A DNA stretch of 64,000 bases from contig NZ_CP046175.1 in NCBI RefSeq assembly GCF_009708215.1, positions 2,418,001 through 2,482,000 on the forward strand, read 5' to 3'. This stretch comes from Occultella kanbiaonis (lineage in GTDB: Bacteria > Actinomycetota > Actinomycetes > Actinomycetales > Beutenbergiaceae). Of the stretch, positions 8,007-15,528 are shown piece by piece; within the stretch, counting starts at the first letter, position 1, and every line of letters starts with the position of its first letter. The notes under the pieces are model-generated. The model did no database searches and was not told the DNA's origin. It saw only the letters and a program-made list of their open reading frames with translations. The position numbers and the translations under genes are program-made.

Positions 8007-10097
8007 ATGCGCCCTGTCACCGATCTGCAGCGGACCGTCGCCCCGTTCGAGGTGATCTCCGAGTACACCCCCTCGGGGGACCAGCCGACCGCCATCGCCG
8101 ACCTCACGGAGCGGTTGAAGGCGGGGGAGAAGGACGTCGTGCTGCTCGGTGCGACCGGTACCGGGAAGTCGGCGACCACGGCCTGGCTGATCGAACAGGT
8201 GCAACGGCCCACCCTGGTGATGGCGCCGAACAAGACCCTGGCCGCGCAGTTGGCCACGGAGTTCCGTGAGCTCCTGCCGAACAACGCAGTCGAGTACTTC
8301 GTCTCCTATTACGACTACTACCAGCCCGAGGCGTACGTCCCGCAGTCGGACACCTACATCGAGAAGGACTCCTCGATCAACGACGAGGTCGAGCGGCTGC
8401 GGCACTCGGCCACGAACAACCTGCTCACCCGGCGCGACGTCATCGTGGTCGCGTCGGTGTCCTGCATCTACGGTCTCGGCACCCCGCAGGAGTACGTGGA
8501 CCGGATGGTGCCACTGCGGGTCGGGGACAGCATCGACCGCGACGACCTGCTCCGCCACTTCGTGACCATGCAGTACACGCGCAACGACATGGCCTTCACC
8601 CGGGGTACGTTCCGGGTCCGCGGAGACACCATCGAGATCATCCCCGTCTACGAGGAGCTCGCGATCCGGATCGAGATGTTCGGGGACGAGATCGAGTCCA
8701 TCCAGACGCTGAACCCGCTCACGGGTGAGGTGGTGCGCTCGGAGACCGAGACGCACCTGTTCCCGGCCACCCACTACGTGGCCGGGCCGGAGCGGATGGA
8801 ACGCGCGATCGGGACGATCGAGGTCGAGCTCGCCGAGCGGCTGGCCGAGTTCGAGGCACAGGGCAAGCTCCTGGAGGCGCAGCGGCTGCGGATGCGCACC
8901 ACGTACGACATCGAGATGATGCGCCAGATCGGGTCCTGCTCCGGGATCGAGAACTACTCGCGGCACATCGACGGGCGCGAGGCGGGCTCCGCCCCGCACA
9001 CGCTGCTGGACTACTTCCCCGAGGACTTCCTGCTCGTCATCGACGAGTCACACGTCACCGTGCCGCAGATCGGAGCCATGTTCGAGGGGGACTCCTCCCG
9101 CAAGCGCACCCTGGTCGAACACGGGTTCCGGCTGCCGAGCGCGATGGACAACCGCCCGCTGCGGTGGGAGGAGTTCCTGGACCGGATCGGGCAGACCGTG
9201 TACCTCTCCGCCACCCCGGGCTCCTACGAGCTGTCCCAGTCCGACGGCGTCGTCGAGCAGATCATCCGGCCCACCGGTCTGGTCGACCCGAAGGTGGTCG
9301 TCAAGCCGACCCAGGGCCAGATCGACGACCTGCTCGCCGAGATCCGGGAGCGCGCGGGCCGGGACGAGCGGGTGCTGGTCACCACGCTCACCAAGAAGAT
9401 GGCCGAGGACCTCACCGACTACTTCCTGGAACGGGACGTGCGGGTGCGCTACCTGCACTCCGAGGTGGACACGCTGCGCCGGGTGGAACTGCTCCGCGAG
9501 CTGCGCTCGGGTGTGTTCGACGTGCTCGTCGGCATCAACCTCCTCCGGGAGGGCCTCGACCTGCCCGAGGTGTCCCTGGTGAGCATCCTGGACGCGGACA
9601 AGGAGGGCTTCCTGCGCTCGTCCACGTCGCTGATCCAAACGATCGGGCGGGCCGCTCGGAACGTGTCCGGTGAGGTGCACATGTACGCGGACTCGATCAC
9701 GCCGTCCATGAAGCTGGCACTGGAGGAGACCGACCGGCGCAGGGAGAAGCAGGTCGCCTACAACACGGCGAACGGCATCGACCCGACGCCGCTGCGGAAG
9801 CGGATCGGGGACATCACCGAGATGCTCGCCCGCGAGGAGATCGACACGAAGGAGCTCCTGTCCGGTGGCTACCGCCAGCAGGGCAAGGGACGCGGTGGGA
9901 AGGCACCCACGCCCACGACCACGCGGGAGAAGCTCGCGGGGGCGGCCGCATCGGATCTCGCCGACCTCATCCAGGAGCTGAACGACCAGATGCACGCGGC
10001 GGCGGAGGAGCTGCAGTTCGAGCTCGCGGCCCGGCTGCGGGACGAGGTCTCCGACCTCAAGAAGGAACTGCGGCAGATGACGCAGGCGACGGCCTGA
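8007..10097 (+). CDS. uvrB: Excinuclease ABC subunit B
   Basis: This 696-residue DNA-damage recognition helicase of nucleotide excision repair loads onto lesions with UvrA and recruits UvrC. Walker A is GATGTGKS (48-55). The beta-hairpin region contains [12 protein letters not shown], the DEAD-like motif is VIDESHVT, and helicase motif VI is QTIGRAARN. The C-terminal UVR coiled coil (about 655-690) binds UvrC. ATG 8007 gives the family start; the frame is open further upstream but overlaps the divergent esterase. No LexA box was found directly upstream, unlike uvrA here. Confidence 0.98.
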
Positions 10098-10117
10098 GGC
10101 CGGGGCCCGCCTGCGTC
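10079..10117. terminator. Hairpin at the end of uvrB
   Basis: GACGCAGGCG (10079-10088) pairs exactly with CGCCTGCGTC (10108-10117), enclosing a smaller GGCC-TGA-GGCC hairpin (10091-10101). The 5' arm lies in the last uvrB codons. The caspase-like gene converges from the other side, so it may serve both. Confidence 0.65.
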
Positions 10118-10141
10118 GCGATGGGTGGGGGCACGCGACCG

Positions 10142-11953
10142 TCACGGCGCCAGGGTCGTGATCACCCACTCCGCCGCGGTCCAGTCCTGCGCTGATACCG
10201 CGGCGGCGTCCGCGACGAGGGCGGCGGGATCCAGGGTCAGCCCCCGGCTGGCGTCGGCGCCCAACTCGGCCTGCTGCATCTGCTGGGCATCGAACTCCAC
10301 CGTGCTGACGAACAGCTTGAGAACGTCCACGGCCCGGGACCGGCCCGGGGCCACCGTCATCCGGACCGTCGGCTCACCGGTGGCGTCGAGGACCCAGGCC
10401 TCCTCGCCGGCCCCGAGCCAGGCACCGCCACCGGGCAGCAGCGGCACCACGCCGTGGTCCTGGGTGAGTGCGAACAGGGCGCAGTACAGCCTGGGCCCGA
10501 GCCGGTTGACCACCCGGATCCGCGCTGGCGCCCACCGTTGCCCGGGTGGGCACCGCACCTCCACGGTGCCGTCCACGGGTAGCGGGGTGCCGTCGGGCTG
10601 CTCGACGGCGACATCGACGGTCCCCACCGGGATCGTGGTGCCCGGGTTGCGCCGGTCGAGCAGGTCGTGCCAGCGACCGATGTGCGCGGCCCGGCCCGGA
10701 TCCCCGCCTGCGTCACCGGGGAGGTCACCGGCCGGGCCACCGCCCACGCCGCCGGCGTTCGCGCGGCCACCGACCGCGCCGCCGTTCGCCGCGCCGCCGG
10801 CCGGGCCGCCCGGGGCGTGGCCGGCACGGCCGACGCTCGCACGATAGGTGCGCGCGGGATCGAGGGCGCCCTCGCCGTCGGTGATCCGGACGTCGCTCTC
10901 GCCGACCCGCACCTGCGTGAGGACACCCCGCGCGAGCGGCTCGGCCGAGGGTGGCGGCGCGCCGTCCTGCGGCGCGCCGATCGGGAACAGTGCGATCTCC
11001 GTGCTGCCGACGGAGACGTCCGGGAGACCGTGCACCGCCCCGCCGTCGAGCAGCCACCGACCACCGCGGATGCTCATCGTGAACGGGTGCGCAGCCAGCA
11101 CCGCCGCTCCGCCGAGGAACGGCCGGTCCAGGTCGCCCGGCTCGGAGACCTCGAGCTGCGGGCTCTGATCGGCGACGAGGTCAAGGGTGGCCGCGCTGCA
11201 CATCCGGTGGATGTCCCGGTAGGAGAGCGGCCCGATCGCACCCGTGAGGGCCCGCTCGAGGCCCGCCGAGAGCACCCCGCGGGTGACACCCCGCACCGGT
11301 CGTTCCTTGGCCTTCTGGTCCGAGCGGCAGGCGGACAGCGCCACCCAGCGAGCGGCCGGACCACCGCCGGGCCCGGGAGGTCTCGCCCCGCCCGGGCCCC
11401 TGGTGGCAGGCAGGGACAGGCTCGCCCCCGGCGGGCGGATCCGCTCGTCCGCCGGCGCCGCGCGGACACCGTCGGTGACGTCGTCGTCGATCGTGCGGGT
11501 CCCGCCCCCCGAGTGGCAGCAGTCGAGCACGGCGAACATATGACCGCCGCGCCCCGCGGCCAGGCCGAGCAGTTGCGCGAGCTCCTTGTCCGCCAGGTCG
11601 AATACGCCGGGAGTGCGGGCGTCGTAGGGGACCAGGGTCTCGATCAGTCGATCGGGCTCGGCGTGCCAGATGGACTCCGGCGCCTGCTCCTGGGAGCCGT
11701 GCCCGCTGTACCAGAACACGGCGACATCGTCCGGCCCGGTGCTGCCCAGGTGTTCGACGAACGCTGCGATCAGGGCCTCCCTGGTCGCCTCGGCGTCACG
11801 GAGGGTGCGCACCTCCAGGGTGGCCCCCGCGGACTCCGCGCGCACCCGCAGCACCTGCTCGGCCGCCGCGACGTCGTTGCCGCAGCCCGCGAGAGGCGTG
11901 ATCGCGAGGTAGTCGTCGATCCCCACGAGAAGTGCCCGTACGGTGCCGGCCAT
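10142..11953 (-). CDS. Caspase-family (peptidase C14, metacaspase-like) protein
   Basis: The protein has 603 residues. Residues 1 to about 290 form a caspase-like protease domain: the N-terminal strand RALLVGIDDY, catalytic His85 in FWYSGHGSQ and catalytic Cys146 in VLDCCHSGG, followed by a later core strand (VALSACRSDQKAKE). Between them is a Gly/Pro/Arg-rich loop (about 165-202), where processing of metacaspases usually occurs. A second Gly/Ala-rich linker (about 425-470) precedes a C-terminal region ending in KLFVSTVEFD, a motif often seen in bacterial caspase proteins. There is no signal peptide, so it is probably cytosolic. ATG 11953 is fixed by GGAGG five bases upstream. It is divergent from a CHAT protease. 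Metacaspases cut after Arg or Lys; the target here is unknown. Confidence 0.88.
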   Translation of the reverse strand: MAGTVRALLVGIDDYLAITPLAGCGNDVAAAEQVLRVRAESAGATLEVRTLRDAEATREALIAAFVEHLGSTGPDDVAVFWYSGHGSQEQAPESIWHAEPDRLIETLVPYDARTPGVFDLADKELAQLLGLAAGRGGHMFAVLDCCHSGGGTRTIDDDVTDGVRAAPADERIRPPGASLSLPATRGPGGARPPGPGGGPAARWVALSACRSDQKAKERPVRGVTRGVLSAGLERALTGAIGPLSYRDIHRMCSAATLDLVADQSPQLEVSEPGDLDRPFLGGAAVLAAHPFTMSIRGGRWLLDGGAVHGLPDVSVGSTEIALFPIGAPQDGAPPPSAEPLARGVLTQVRVGESDVRITDGEGALDPARTYRASVGRAGHAPGGPAGGAANGGAVGGRANAGGVGGGPAGDLPGDAGGDPGRAAHIGRWHDLLDRRNPGTTIPVGTVDVAVEQPDGTPLPVDGTVEVRCPPGQRWAPARIRVVNRLGPRLYCALFALTQDHGVVPLLPGGGAWLGAGEEAWVLDATGEPTVRMTVAPGRSRAVDVLKLFVSTVEFDAQQMQQAELGADASRGLTLDPAALVADAAAVSAQDWTAAEWVITTLAP

Positions 11954-12012
11954 GTGATCCTCCTTGTCGCCGGCCGTGTTGCTCAAGTCTCGCGCGGTCG
12001 GCCCTGCCGCGA

Positions 12013-12046
12013 CGGGTGATTCGGTGCCCGTCCCCGGGTGAATCGG
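12013..12046. repeat. Direct repeat in the caspase/CHAT intergenic region
   Basis: CGGGTGATTCGG (12013-12024) and CGGGTGAATCGG (12035-12046) differ at one base and start 22 bases apart, close to two helical turns. They lie in the 213-base region shared by the two divergent protease genes. This could be a shared binding site for an unidentified regulator. Confidence 0.45.
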
Positions 12047-12166
12047 CCGGTTCGCGGGAATCACACGGGAAATCGCTGTGCCGGGCTGCGCAGCGGTCGG
12101 ACAATGGAACCGAGCCGTCCTCGGCGTTCACCGATGAACGCGGTCCGCGGAGCGGAGGTGTTACTT

Positions 12167-14479
12167 GTGCGTGCGTATCTCGATCTGGATCTGGCCCTCG
12201 TCTCCGACCGCGGCGGCGCGGTACAGGCGCGGGTCACGAGTTCGCCGGCGGGCGTTGCAGAGGCCGCCTTCGAACTGCCCGTCACCCCGATGGAGCTGGC
12301 TCGATTCCTGGTCGCCACCGGCCCCGCACGCGCGCCGGCGAGAGGTATCTCGCTGAGCCCGGGCCCGATCGACCTCCAGGACATCGGCGGCCGGCTCAAC
12401 GACGCGATCTTCGCCGGTGACATCCGGGCCTGCTTCCAGCGCAGCCTCACGCTCGCTGAACGGCAGGGCAAGGGGCTGAGGATCCGGCTCAACCTGAGCG
12501 GCGCCCCGGACCTGGCCGGCGTGCCCTGGGAGTACCTGTACTCGCACGCGCTGAGCCGCTTCCTCACCCTGTCCACCGACACTCCGCTGGTGCGCTTCCT
12601 GGACACCCCGGCGCGGTCGACGCCGGCCGGGCTGGACCCGCCGCTGCGCGTCCTCGTGATGATCTCCAGCCCGAGCGACGCCGCCCGACTGGACGTGCAC
12701 CGCGAGGCCGAGCTGCTCCGCACGACGACGGCGGACCTGACCGCGGCCGGCTCGCTCGAACTGGTGTTCCTAGAGTCCGCGACCCTGACCGGGCTGCAGC
12801 ACGCGATCAATCAGCGCTTCCACGTCTTCCACTTCATCGGGCACGGCGGCTTCGACCGCGCCGCCGGCACCGGGGTCCTCGTCCTGGAGCGTGAGGACGG
12901 CACCTCCCACCTCGTCTCCGCCGCGAAGCTGGGCACGCTCCTGCACGATGCCAAGAGCTGCCAGCTCGCGGTGCTGAACGCGTGCGAGGGTGCGCAGACA
13001 TCGGGCCAGGACGTCTTCTCCGGCGTCGGGCAGACCTTGGTCCGGCAGGGGCTGCCGGCGGTGGTGGCGATGCAGTCGGAGATCTCCGACCGCGCCGCGG
13101 TGGCCTTCTCGCACGAGTTCTACTACGTGCTCGCAAGCGGCCGCTCGGTCGAGGAGGCTGTCGTCGAGGCGCGCAAGGCCATCTACCTCACCTACGAGGA
13201 CTCCGAGTGGGGCACCCCGGTGCTGTTGCGGTCCGCGGCCGAGGAGCAGCCGTTCCTGCTCACCCGGCCGGCTGCCCTGCCCACCCGGGACCAGCACTGG
13301 GCCGCGATGCGCGCCGCCGCCCAGGAGGCAGCCGCAGCAGGCTCCGACCGCGTCGCGGTGCCGTTGCTGCAGCAGTTGGTCGCCGAGAACCCCGCTGACG
13401 ACGGGGCGACGGCGTTGCTCGCCAGGGTGCAGACCGACGCACGCGCCGATACCACCGGTGACCCCACTCACCCGGTCCCGCCCGACGCGCGCGCGGACGT
13501 TCCGGTCCGGCCCGGACCGCAGCCGCGCCACCAGGCGCCCCAGCCCGCCCCGCCGGCACCGCCGGCGGCGTTCCCACCCGTCGGCCCGAGCACGCCGCAC
13601 CCAGACCCACGCCGACGGCGCAGGCTCACCACCGCCGTCGTGCTCACCGCGGCTCTCGTGTTCGCGGGCGTCGGTGGCTATGCGCTGTGGCGGTCGGTCC
13701 AGCCGGCCGACTCCGCGAGCGGTGCGAGTCCCAGCGTGGACCAGAACTACGTGGTCACAGCGTGCGGCGAGGAGGCCGAGCTGCCCGATCCGAGCCCGGA
13801 CCTCGTCAGCATCCCGTGTGCCCTGCAGGCGCCGGTGATGGACGGGGACATGTCGGACTGGGGGGATGTGCCCGCCTGGCACGCGAGCGAGACGGTGTAT
13901 GCGAACCCTGAGGACGCCGGCGCCACCGACTTCGCGAGCGCCTGGTACCTGGTGTGGACCAGGGACTTCCTGTTCGTCCACGTCGAGGTCCTGGACCCCG
14001 CCCATACGCCGGTCGACCCGTACTCACCGTCGGCGTTCTGGGAGGGGGACGGGGTCTCGTTCGAGTTCGGCCCGGACCCGCGCGCGCTCGCCGACACCGA
14101 GCAGCTGCGCCCCGATGACCTGCACGTGCTGCTCGGCGTCACCGCGGAGCGTGTGCTGACCGCCGCGAACGCCCCGGGCGGGCGGGGCACGTTCGAGGCC
14201 GCGATCGGAGATCTCGGCGTCGACACGGGGCTGCAGTTCACCGAGCAGGGGTACCTGATCGAGGCGGCGTTCCCCTGGAGCACCCTGAACGTGGCCTCGC
14301 CGCCTGCCCGGGGTGACGTGTTCGGGATGAACCTGAACGCGAGCAACGCACGCGTGAACGGGCCGGCCGCGCCCACGGATCTGGCCCGGATGGTCAGTTC
14401 GAACCCGATCCGGACCGCCGTGGAGCAGAACCTGCCCGGGCTCTGGCACACCGTGGTACTGGCCGGGCCGAGCGCCTGA
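12167..14479 (+). CDS. CHAT-domain protease with membrane anchor and CBM9/DOMON-like outer domain
   Basis: The protein has 770 residues. The N-terminal part (1 to about 400) is a CHAT domain, a caspase-clan cysteine protease, with His226 in HFIGHGGF and Cys273 in LNACEGAQ and the typical C-terminal core (VVAMQSEISDRAAVAFS). A Pro-rich linker leads to one membrane span (about 486-508) after a basic RRRR stretch, which predicts a cytosolic protease. Outside lies a 200-residue domain (about 555-770) opening with MDGDMSDWGDVPAW and resembling CBM9/DOMON-like sugar- or haem-binding domains, preceded by a Cys pair that could form a disulfide. I chose GTG 12167 (GGAGG eight bases upstream); ATG 12134 or GTG 12158 would add a rare TTA codon. 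Confidence 0.86.
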   Translation: MRAYLDLDLALVSDRGGAVQARVTSSPAGVAEAAFELPVTPMELARFLVATGPARAPARGISLSPGPIDLQDIGGRLNDAIFAGDIRACFQRSLTLAERQGKGLRIRLNLSGAPDLAGVPWEYLYSHALSRFLTLSTDTPLVRFLDTPARSTPAGLDPPLRVLVMISSPSDAARLDVHREAELLRTTTADLTAAGSLELVFLESATLTGLQHAINQRFHVFHFIGHGGFDRAAGTGVLVLEREDGTSHLVSAAKLGTLLHDAKSCQLAVLNACEGAQTSGQDVFSGVGQTLVRQGLPAVVAMQSEISDRAAVAFSHEFYYVLASGRSVEEAVVEARKAIYLTYEDSEWGTPVLLRSAAEEQPFLLTRPAALPTRDQHWAAMRAAAQEAAAAGSDRVAVPLLQQLVAENPADDGATALLARVQTDARADTTGDPTHPVPPDARADVPVRPGPQPRHQAPQPAPPAPPAAFPPVGPSTPHPDPRRRRRLTTAVVLTAALVFAGVGGYALWRSVQPADSASGASPSVDQNYVVTACGEEAELPDPSPDLVSIPCALQAPVMDGDMSDWGDVPAWHASETVYANPEDAGATDFASAWYLVWTRDFLFVHVEVLDPAHTPVDPYSPSAFWEGDGVSFEFGPDPRALADTEQLRPDDLHVLLGVTAERVLTAANAPGGRGTFEAAIGDLGVDTGLQFTEQGYLIEAAFPWSTLNVASPPARGDVFGMNLNASNARVNGPAAPTDLARMVSSNPIRTAVEQNLPGLWHTVVLAGPSA

Positions 14480-14533
14480 CGCGTCGTCCGCCGAGTCGTT
14501 ATCAAATCGGGACCTCATCGGGCCCGGAACGAC

Positions 14534-14562
14534 TTGACGTGCCCGGGTTGCGAGAATACCTT
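14534..14562 (+). promoter_or_regulatory. Possible promoter of the amino-sugar operon
   Basis: TTGACG (14534-14539) is followed after 17 bases by TACCTT (14557-14562), about 36 bases before the rpiR-type start. The -35 is good and the -10 weak. TTTCAG occurs at the -10 and again just before the start codon. Confidence 0.35.
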
Positions 14563-14598
14563 TCAGCGATACCCACGGCGTCGTGAGAGGAATTTTCA

Positions 14599-15528
14599 GT
14601 GGAACTGGATTCTGTCGAGACAGCGGACGGCACGCTCCGCATGGTCGAGCGCATCCAGGCCAATCTCCCACAGATGTCCGCGACGATGTCGAAGATCGGT
14701 GACCTGCTGCTCGCCGAGCCGGCCGCACCGCTCGAACTCTCCATCACCGAGCTCGCCGACCGGGCCGGCACCTCCGCGGCCACCGTGACCCGGTTCTGCC
14801 GCCAGCTCGGGTACCCCGGCTACGTCCAGTTCCGGGTCGCCGTCGCGGCGGACAGCGGCCGCGGTGAGGCCGACGACCAGTGGCGCGACGAGATCGGGCG
14901 GACACTCTCGCCGACCGACCCGCCGCAGGCCGTGCTGCGGACGCTGCTGAATGCCCACATCCGCTCGCTGCGCGCCACGGCCGGCACCGTCGACGTCGCC
15001 GAGTGCGCGGCCGTGGCAGAGCGCATCGCCAACTCCCGGCACCTGGACATCTACGGGACCGGCGGTAGCGCCGCGATGGCCGACGAGCTCGAGAACCGGC
15101 TCTACCGGATCGGCGTCAACGTGCACTCCTGGGGCGACGTGCACGCCGGCCTGGCGAGCGCTTCGATCCAGGACGAGCGCACCATCGCGATCGGCATTTC
15201 CAACAGTGGCCGCACCAAGGAGACGATCGAGATGCTCGCCCGCGCGAAGGCGTCCGGGGCGTTCACGGTGGCCATCACGAACCGGCACACCTCCCCGCTG
15301 GGGCAACTCGCGGACGTCTGCCTGACCGCGTCCGTGCCGGAGCAGTACCTGCACCCCGCCGACCTCTCCGCGAAGCACTCCCAGCTGTTCGTCCTGGACC
15401 TGATTTACCTCCTGGTAATCCAACAGGACTTCACTGACAGCGTGAACAAGATCGCGGCGTCCGCCCGCGCAGTTTCCGGGCACCGTCGGTTCGCCTCCGC
15501 GGACCGCAATGATCCGAGCGCGTCATGA
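14599..15528 (+). CDS. MurR/RpiR-family transcriptional regulator
   Basis: This 309-residue regulator of sugar-phosphate or amino-sugar use has an N-terminal RpiR winged HTH (about 1-85; LADRAGTSAATVTRFCRQLGY) and a C-terminal SIS domain (about 130-260; IYGTGGSAAMADELENRL; GISNSGRTKETIEM) that senses a phosphosugar. It overlaps the next gene, also a SIS protein, by the ATGA junction at 15525. It heads an operon with an NgcEFG-type transporter, so its ligand is likely an N-acetylglucosamine or chitobiose derivative (inference). Confidence 0.93.
   Translation: MELDSVETADGTLRMVERIQANLPQMSATMSKIGDLLLAEPAAPLELSITELADRAGTSAATVTRFCRQLGYPGYVQFRVAVAADSGRGEADDQWRDEIGRTLSPTDPPQAVLRTLLNAHIRSLRATAGTVDVAECAAVAERIANSRHLDIYGTGGSAAMADELENRLYRIGVNVHSWGDVHAGLASASIQDERTIAIGISNSGRTKETIEMLARAKASGAFTVAITNRHTSPLGQLADVCLTASVPEQYLHPADLSAKHSQLFVLDLIYLLVIQQDFTDSVNKIAASARAVSGHRRFASADRNDPSAS

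Follow-up and report, generated by a model that had tools for sequence, protein, structure and literature searches.

Does a pair of adjacent protease genes in Occultella kanbiaonis (genome 5.65 Mb) encode a two-enzyme module, or do two genes with no common function happen to lie side by side? Caspase-clan proteolytic cascades form the core of animal cell death, and a CHAT-led cascade in bacteria has been described from CRISPR. An initial annotation of the DNA stretch analysed here (64,000 nucleotides, referred to as the window) had named two back-to-back caspase-clan cysteine proteases and proposed that one activates the other. The locus, its products, and their relatives were examined with this proposal in mind.

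Locus and intergenic region

Both genes were found as annotated, with matches to PF00656 and PF12770 and with conserved catalytic dyads. They are divergent, lie 213 bp apart, and are flanked by uvrB on one side and by an rpiR-SIS-ABC sugar operon on the other. The features are as follows (window positions):

10142..11953, minus strand: metacaspase-like protease, 603 aa, soluble; p20 with H85 and C146, linker, p10, and beta-rich C-terminal half
11303..11938, minus strand: Peptidase_C14 match (Pfam), residues 6-217
11954..12166, no strand: intergenic region between the caspase and CHAT genes, 213 bp, conserved across four Occultella species
12013..12044, minus strand: GAWTCACCCG in two copies with a start-to-start distance of 22 bp, conserved in 4/4 Occultella species
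12126..12139, no strand: inverted repeat GTTC-N6-GAAC, arms kept in 4/4 Occultella species
12167..14479, plus strand: CHAT protease, 770 aa; N-terminal region, CHAT domain (H226, C273), helices, Pro-rich linker, membrane helix, and outer domain
12434..13306, plus strand: CHAT domain match PF12770 (Pfam, E 4.4e-29)
13631..13687, plus strand: predicted membrane helix (hydrophobicity), residues 489-507, after RRRRR
13862..14341, plus strand: CBM9_1 (carbohydrate-binding family 9-like) match (Pfam), predicted to lie outside the cell

The caspase starts at ATG 11953 behind AAGGAGGA and stops at 10142. GTG 12167, behind GGAGG, is the most likely start of the CHAT gene; the upstream ATG is replaced by ACG in O. 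glacieicola, and the residue numbers given originally (His85/Cys146 and His226/Cys273) agree with ours, those of the CHAT fitting the GTG start. Because Shine-Dalgarno stretches precede both start codons, the intergenic gap amounts to 213 bp, and this stretch aligns well across the four species. No sigma-70-type promoter was found in 9900-14900, so that the "one promoter region" which the genes had been said to share stands in a positional sense only, as a conserved gap between divergent genes. The GAWTCACCCG copies and the GTTC-N6-GAAC repeat, both picked after looking, are possible candidate sites for a regulator. CRISPR-like direct repeats were not found in window positions 1-30000, in agreement with the original remark that no CRISPR is adjacent.

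The caspase

The match to PF00656 (Pfam, E 3.2e-12) was accompanied by conservation of the H85/C146 dyad in 32/32 aligned relatives. When compared with solved structures, the caspase profile matched metacaspases (best Metacaspase-1, E 6.4e-32), and a fair structure model (mean pLDDT 77) retrieved GSU0716 (E 1.7e-12), plant metacaspase 9 (E 1.2e-11), Yca1 (E 1.2e-8), and MALT1 (E 1.5e-8) in Foldseek. With a His-Cys dyad in p20 and a caspase fold, the protein is a metacaspase-like Peptidase_C14 member. Its C-terminal half gave no Pfam match even at E 10, and it carries no hydrolase domain; a DUF7379 (hydrolase-like) domain was present in all three caspases of its family from other phyla that were run through Pfam. 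No caspase relative was found in viral contigs. A second caspase of the O. kanbiaonis genome (3596765-3597307, a 365-aa open frame) lies far from the genome's three CHAT places.

Processing of the caspase had originally been placed in a Gly/Pro/Arg-rich loop. Two stretches could fit this description, 180-203, which falls within the p20-p10 linker, and 378-416; the model has low confidence in both, and their sequences vary, part of the first being missing in O. gossypii and most of the second in O. glacieicola. R164, near the start of the linker, falls in a column with a basic residue in 31/32 aligned caspases and appears to be the better candidate cut site. The gene is under purifying selection (dN/dS 0.18-0.21 between Occultella species), at values above those of uvrB (0.03-0.07) and rpiR (0-0.13) throughout; some neighbour genes reach values like those of the pair, as does the esterase (0.14-0.21). 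The linker (161-200) evolves fast (dN/dS 0.29-0.44), and a strictly conserved cut site within it is therefore not favoured.

The CHAT protein

The second protein classifies as a PF12770 CHAT protease by its family match and its His-Cys dyad (H226 and C273), which is kept in 35/35 aligned CHATs. Both proteases thus look active, their dyads being intact and conserved in relatives. Hydrophobicity is highest in a segment that begins at residue 489, after RRRRR, and the single helix predicted there bears out the membrane anchor named in the initial annotation; by the positive-inside rule, the protease domain would face the cytoplasm and the C-terminal domain the outside. The outer CBM9-like domain that had been claimed was recovered marginally (CBM9_1, E 3.2e-5; with a cut-off of 23.4 bits, the protein scored 24.3 and its isolated C-terminal piece 27.9), and its outer position is a prediction. 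The structure model was poor outside the core (mean pLDDT 47), and the outer domain did not fold. Purifying selection was observed here too (dN/dS 0.12 and 0.16 in the closer Occultella species, 0.40 against O. glacieicola), the linker being the fastest part (0.31-0.64).

Among solved structures, the only chain matched by the CHAT profile at E 0.01 was 8tl0 (E 7.1e-25), a SAVED-CHAT structure (PMC11417357). The PADLOC SAVED_CHAT model also matched (E 8.8e-17), in a region that overlaps the CHAT domain match; no SAVED family was found among Pfam matches up to E 1, at which level a very divergent sensor is still possible.

HetF is a CHAT protein that functions in cyanobacteria, and the NCBIfam HetF model matched the Occultella CHAT with E 2.8e-24. 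Together with the CBM9-like outer domain and a site that is constant in four species beside the RpiR/SIS/ABC sugar operon, this match would suit a role in envelope or developmental control, the membrane CHAT acting like HetF-type CHATs and the caspase serving as a maintenance protease, with no cell death. The score of 85.5 bits falls far below the cut-off of 1200, by which HetF equivalog identity was rejected, and we consider such a role rather unlikely.

Occurrence in Occultella and its close relatives

Both proteins were searched at E 1e-5 in the genomes of 39 relatives (4 Occultella and 35 others), which yielded the caspase in 4 and a CHAT in 8. The exact divergent pair of caspase and membrane CHAT was present in 4/4 Occultella genomes, always at the same site between uvrB and the sugar operon, and in 0/35 of the others. 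CHATs with no caspase relative were found in G035 (a genome 89% complete) and G037, and weak CHAT matches with no caspase in G015 and G020. The CHAT of G035 (L085:2062-4497) has a hydrophobic stretch followed by a different C-terminal part with no Pfam match, and that of G037 (L086:9133-11349) a hydrophobic, multi-helix-looking tail; to judge from these differing ends, the outer part of the membrane CHAT looks exchangeable. Contig L086 also carries a large convergent gene, NACHT-like by eye.

A uvrB match was obtained in 19 non-Occultella genomes of the family, and 12 of these stretches were examined. The same rpiR-SIS-ABC genes come after uvrB in 8/12; in the other 4/12, no rpiR operon was seen there. 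Neither caspase nor CHAT was detected at E 1e-8 in any of the 12. Since both genes are missing from the same uvrB-rpiR site in relatives, they were gained or lost together. As a separate observation, the interval that holds the protease pair in Occultella (window 10097-14599) is occupied in other Ruaniaceae by a minus-strand kinase-like gene, which was seen in all six of the eight uvrB-rpiR intervals that were translated (L110, L112, L113, L115, L117, and L120). The interval measures about 1.1 kb in five of them and 3.6 kb, with other ORFs, in L117; the gene of L112, the sole one run through Pfam, is of BadF type.

Caspase-CHAT pairing in other bacteria

The wider scan was made from the caspase side only and covered 64 caspase-family loci, several of which are short contigs or distant members. 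To find CHAT ORFs in the flanks, local profiles were used whose training drew in part on these very loci; Pfam confirmed 14 of the CHATs. A CHAT was found in the available flanks of 26/64 loci and within 300 bp in 20/64 (23/61 and 17/61 when the three Occultella loci are left aside). Of the 28 CHAT ORFs, 20 fall within the first 500 bp of flank. The 20 close CHATs are convergent with the caspase in 11 cases, on the same strand in five, and divergent in four. A CHAT or a second caspase stands within 300 bp at 35/64 loci, and neither at 24/64. The pairing spans several phyla in all orientations. A flanking CHAT accompanies each of the 14 Streptomyces loci, which are related and do not count as 14 independent events. 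A second caspase ORF takes the neighbouring place at six cyanobacterial loci, and the one run through Pfam proved to be a caspase-nSTAND1-WD40 protein.

Whole-genome CHAT counts were made for 10 chosen genomes, nine of them with a CHAT at the caspase locus and hence not a blind sample; they ranged from 1 to 15 per genome, with 77 in Calothrix. A hand calculation from these densities gave about 0.002-0.05 expected CHATs per locus (0.11 in Calothrix), well below the 26/64 observed, so that the co-occurrence exceeds chance, one of two outcomes on which the original proposal had been made to depend. In Streptomyces buecherae, the one CHAT in 8.4 Mb is the neighbour of the caspase. The other outcome, a pairing that reaches beyond the closest relatives, was obtained for the wider families across phyla; the divergent version with a membrane CHAT was confined to Occultella (4/39 genomes).

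On plasmids (PLSDB), 23 records matched the caspase, 16 of them from S. clavuligerus. Among the eight that were opened, four have a CHAT nearby (S. clavuligerus, Anabaena, Embleya, and, with two intervening genes, Rhizobium) and three a second caspase (Deinococcus and two Nostoc); the last, with a gene for a giant Nostoc protein that the end of the record truncates, shows no separate partner. A giant caspase-family protein is encoded on Nostoc plasmid pNLP1, typed as conjugative (L126, 3491-10630; gene of 9174 bp). In a Cytophagales (L033) and an Aminicenantes (L045) locus, the caspase is divergent from a caspase-FGE-sulfatase-type fusion, another kind of second-protease partner. Among the matches listed in the open PMC literature, caspase-CHAT gene pairing was not recognisable from titles and the starts of abstracts.

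In the caspase tree, Occultella groups with Actinotalea, Calidithermus, Catenulispora, and Streptomyces in a clade of 20 rows (support 94/93, below the star threshold), 19 of which have a CHAT in the flank, in all three orientations. The CHATs paired with Streptomyces caspases belong to a lineage different from that of the Occultella CHAT, so either such pairs formed repeatedly or a change of partners took place.

That the two genes are neighbours with no common function would fit with the CHAT relatives that occur apart from a caspase and with the restriction of the exact divergent pair to one genus. Adjacency that recurs in several lineages while orientation changes, and joint presence or absence at one site, argue against it, and mere neighbourhood appears highly improbable. 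Because protease pairs of the same kind turn up in distant bacteria with other gene orientations, the Occultella genes look like a real two-enzyme module.

Partner architectures

Seventeen partner proteins were run through Pfam. Parts of nSTAND1-WD40, AAA/NPHP3_N, or TPR type were found above cut-off in six and an FGE lectin-fold-type domain in two; nine had no extra domain above cut-off, and the Streptomyces partners in this set have long N-termini with no match. In the Occultella CHAT, a membrane helix and the outer domain stand in place of an NTPase. These architectures suggest that the partner acts as sensor and the caspase as executor, a division that rests on part of the set, since nine of the 17 partners have no extra domain.

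The same architectures bear on a reversed hierarchy, in which the caspase would be the sensor or the first enzyme to be activated and would process the CHAT, for example by a cut in the Pro/Arg-rich linker (about residues 430-488) that would free it from the membrane. That linker is long and evolves fast, and prokaryotic caspase homologs cleave after basic residues (PMC6426788). NTPase, WD40, and TPR parts, where Pfam finds any, are located on the partner and not on the caspase, which makes this order improbable.

Phage defence by abortive infection, with a CHAT that would sense the attacking phage at the envelope and a caspase that would kill the cell, agrees with the matches of the PADLOC 'caspase' model (E 5.3e-27) and SAVED_CHAT model, with dN values of both protease genes above those of uvrB and rpiR, and with two relatives' partners that join nSTAND1 and WD40, both of them parts of proposed conflict systems (PMC7159879, PMC8195603). 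It is weakened by the fixed site beside a sugar-uptake operon in all four Occultella genomes examined, by the lack of defence genes among the immediate neighbours of the pair that were looked at, and by the fact that the SAVED_CHAT match coincides with the CHAT domain. On balance, we see phage defence as possible, though doubtful.

Proposed sensor-executor mechanism

Our preferred reading, to which we assign a probability of about 45%, is that the two genes form a two-protease module with the CHAT as sensor and the caspase as executor. It is suggested by recurrent pairing beyond chance, seen again on plasmids, conserved dyads in both enzymes, sensor parts on partners, the SAVED-CHAT match, and joint presence or absence; membrane CHATs with no caspase, the 24/64 loci with no partner, the nine partners with no extra domain, the separate lineage of the Streptomyces CHATs, the fast linker, and the failure of the outer domain to fold in the model count against it. 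The ligand, the direction of activation, the cleavage site, and the outcome we infer as follows. The CHAT would sense through its outer CBM9-like domain, which would gate the cytoplasmic protease domain, anchored by one membrane helix, and would probably read glycan or envelope state. Once triggered, the CHAT domain would activate the soluble metacaspase-like protein by cleaving it, the most plausible place being close to R164 in the p20-p10 linker; the active caspase would then cut cell proteins, leading to growth stop or cell death.

The two-protease cascade of the initial annotation is accordingly retained as regards intact dyads, pairing, and the SAVED-CHAT precedent, its direction and substrate being conditional. 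A step from CHAT to caspase is plausible because 8tl0 is the only solved match and SAVED-CHAT offers a precedent for a cascade. The module might even be a bacterial counterpart of a death receptor: in a single-pass membrane protein, the caspase-clan protease on the inside would be gated by a sugar-binding-like domain on the outside and would in turn fire a soluble metacaspase; outside-in proteolytic signalling from two caspase-clan enzymes is the content of this tentative and on the whole unlikely reading. Since caspase-CHAT pairs recur in Streptomyces and other bacteria with no evident tie to CRISPR, such cascades may be common, and the Occultella pair provides a testable two-gene example with a membrane sensor.

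Comparison with known systems

The target of SAVED-CHAT is reportedly a prokaryotic caspase, a result ascribed to Steens et al. in 2024. SAVED-CHAT works through a cascade of proteolytic activity (PMC11229360). The Occultella CHAT shares with this protein of type III CRISPR and CBASS the CHAT protease domain and the profile match to 8tl0; it differs in having no SAVED family by Pfam and no CRISPR-like repeats in window 1-30000, and in carrying a membrane helix and an outer CBM9-like domain instead. With no SAVED cyclic-nucleotide sensor found (Pfam up to E 1), it was not assigned to the SAVED-CHAT effectors of CRISPR or CBASS.

In Craspase (Cas7-11-Csx29), a TPR-CHAT is gated by an RNA-guided effector, and its substrate is a sigma-factor inhibitor (PMC10028731). 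The likeness to our proposal is that a CHAT protease acts on a partner protein; the gating by an RNA-guided effector and a substrate other than a caspase set Craspase apart. A link to Craspase or CRISPR appears unlikely, no CRISPR-like repeats having been found in window 1-30000. In the Canu caspase-nuclease system, a caspase-clan protease activates a paired second enzyme (PMC12799240), which resembles the arrangement here, except that its partner is a nuclease and its prototype has three genes.

Kaur et al. described caspase conflict systems in which caspases occur with alpha/beta hydrolase, STAND NTPases, and lectin-like sensor folds, together with a membrane-associated two-gene EACC1-caspase system (PMC7159879, PMC8195603). 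Caspases with hydrolase, STAND NTPase, and lectin-like parts recur in the present set, as does a membrane-associated two-gene caspase system. Unlike in the EACC1-caspase system, the neighbour of the Occultella caspase is a CHAT gene and not an EACC1 gene; the EACC1 caspase model gave 33.9 bits for the Occultella caspase (cut-off 140), and membership was rejected. The word "CHAT" occurs 0 times in these two papers. What is new in the Occultella pair, against these systems, is that the caspase has as its partner a CHAT bearing both a membrane helix and, on the outer side, a sugar-binding-like domain.
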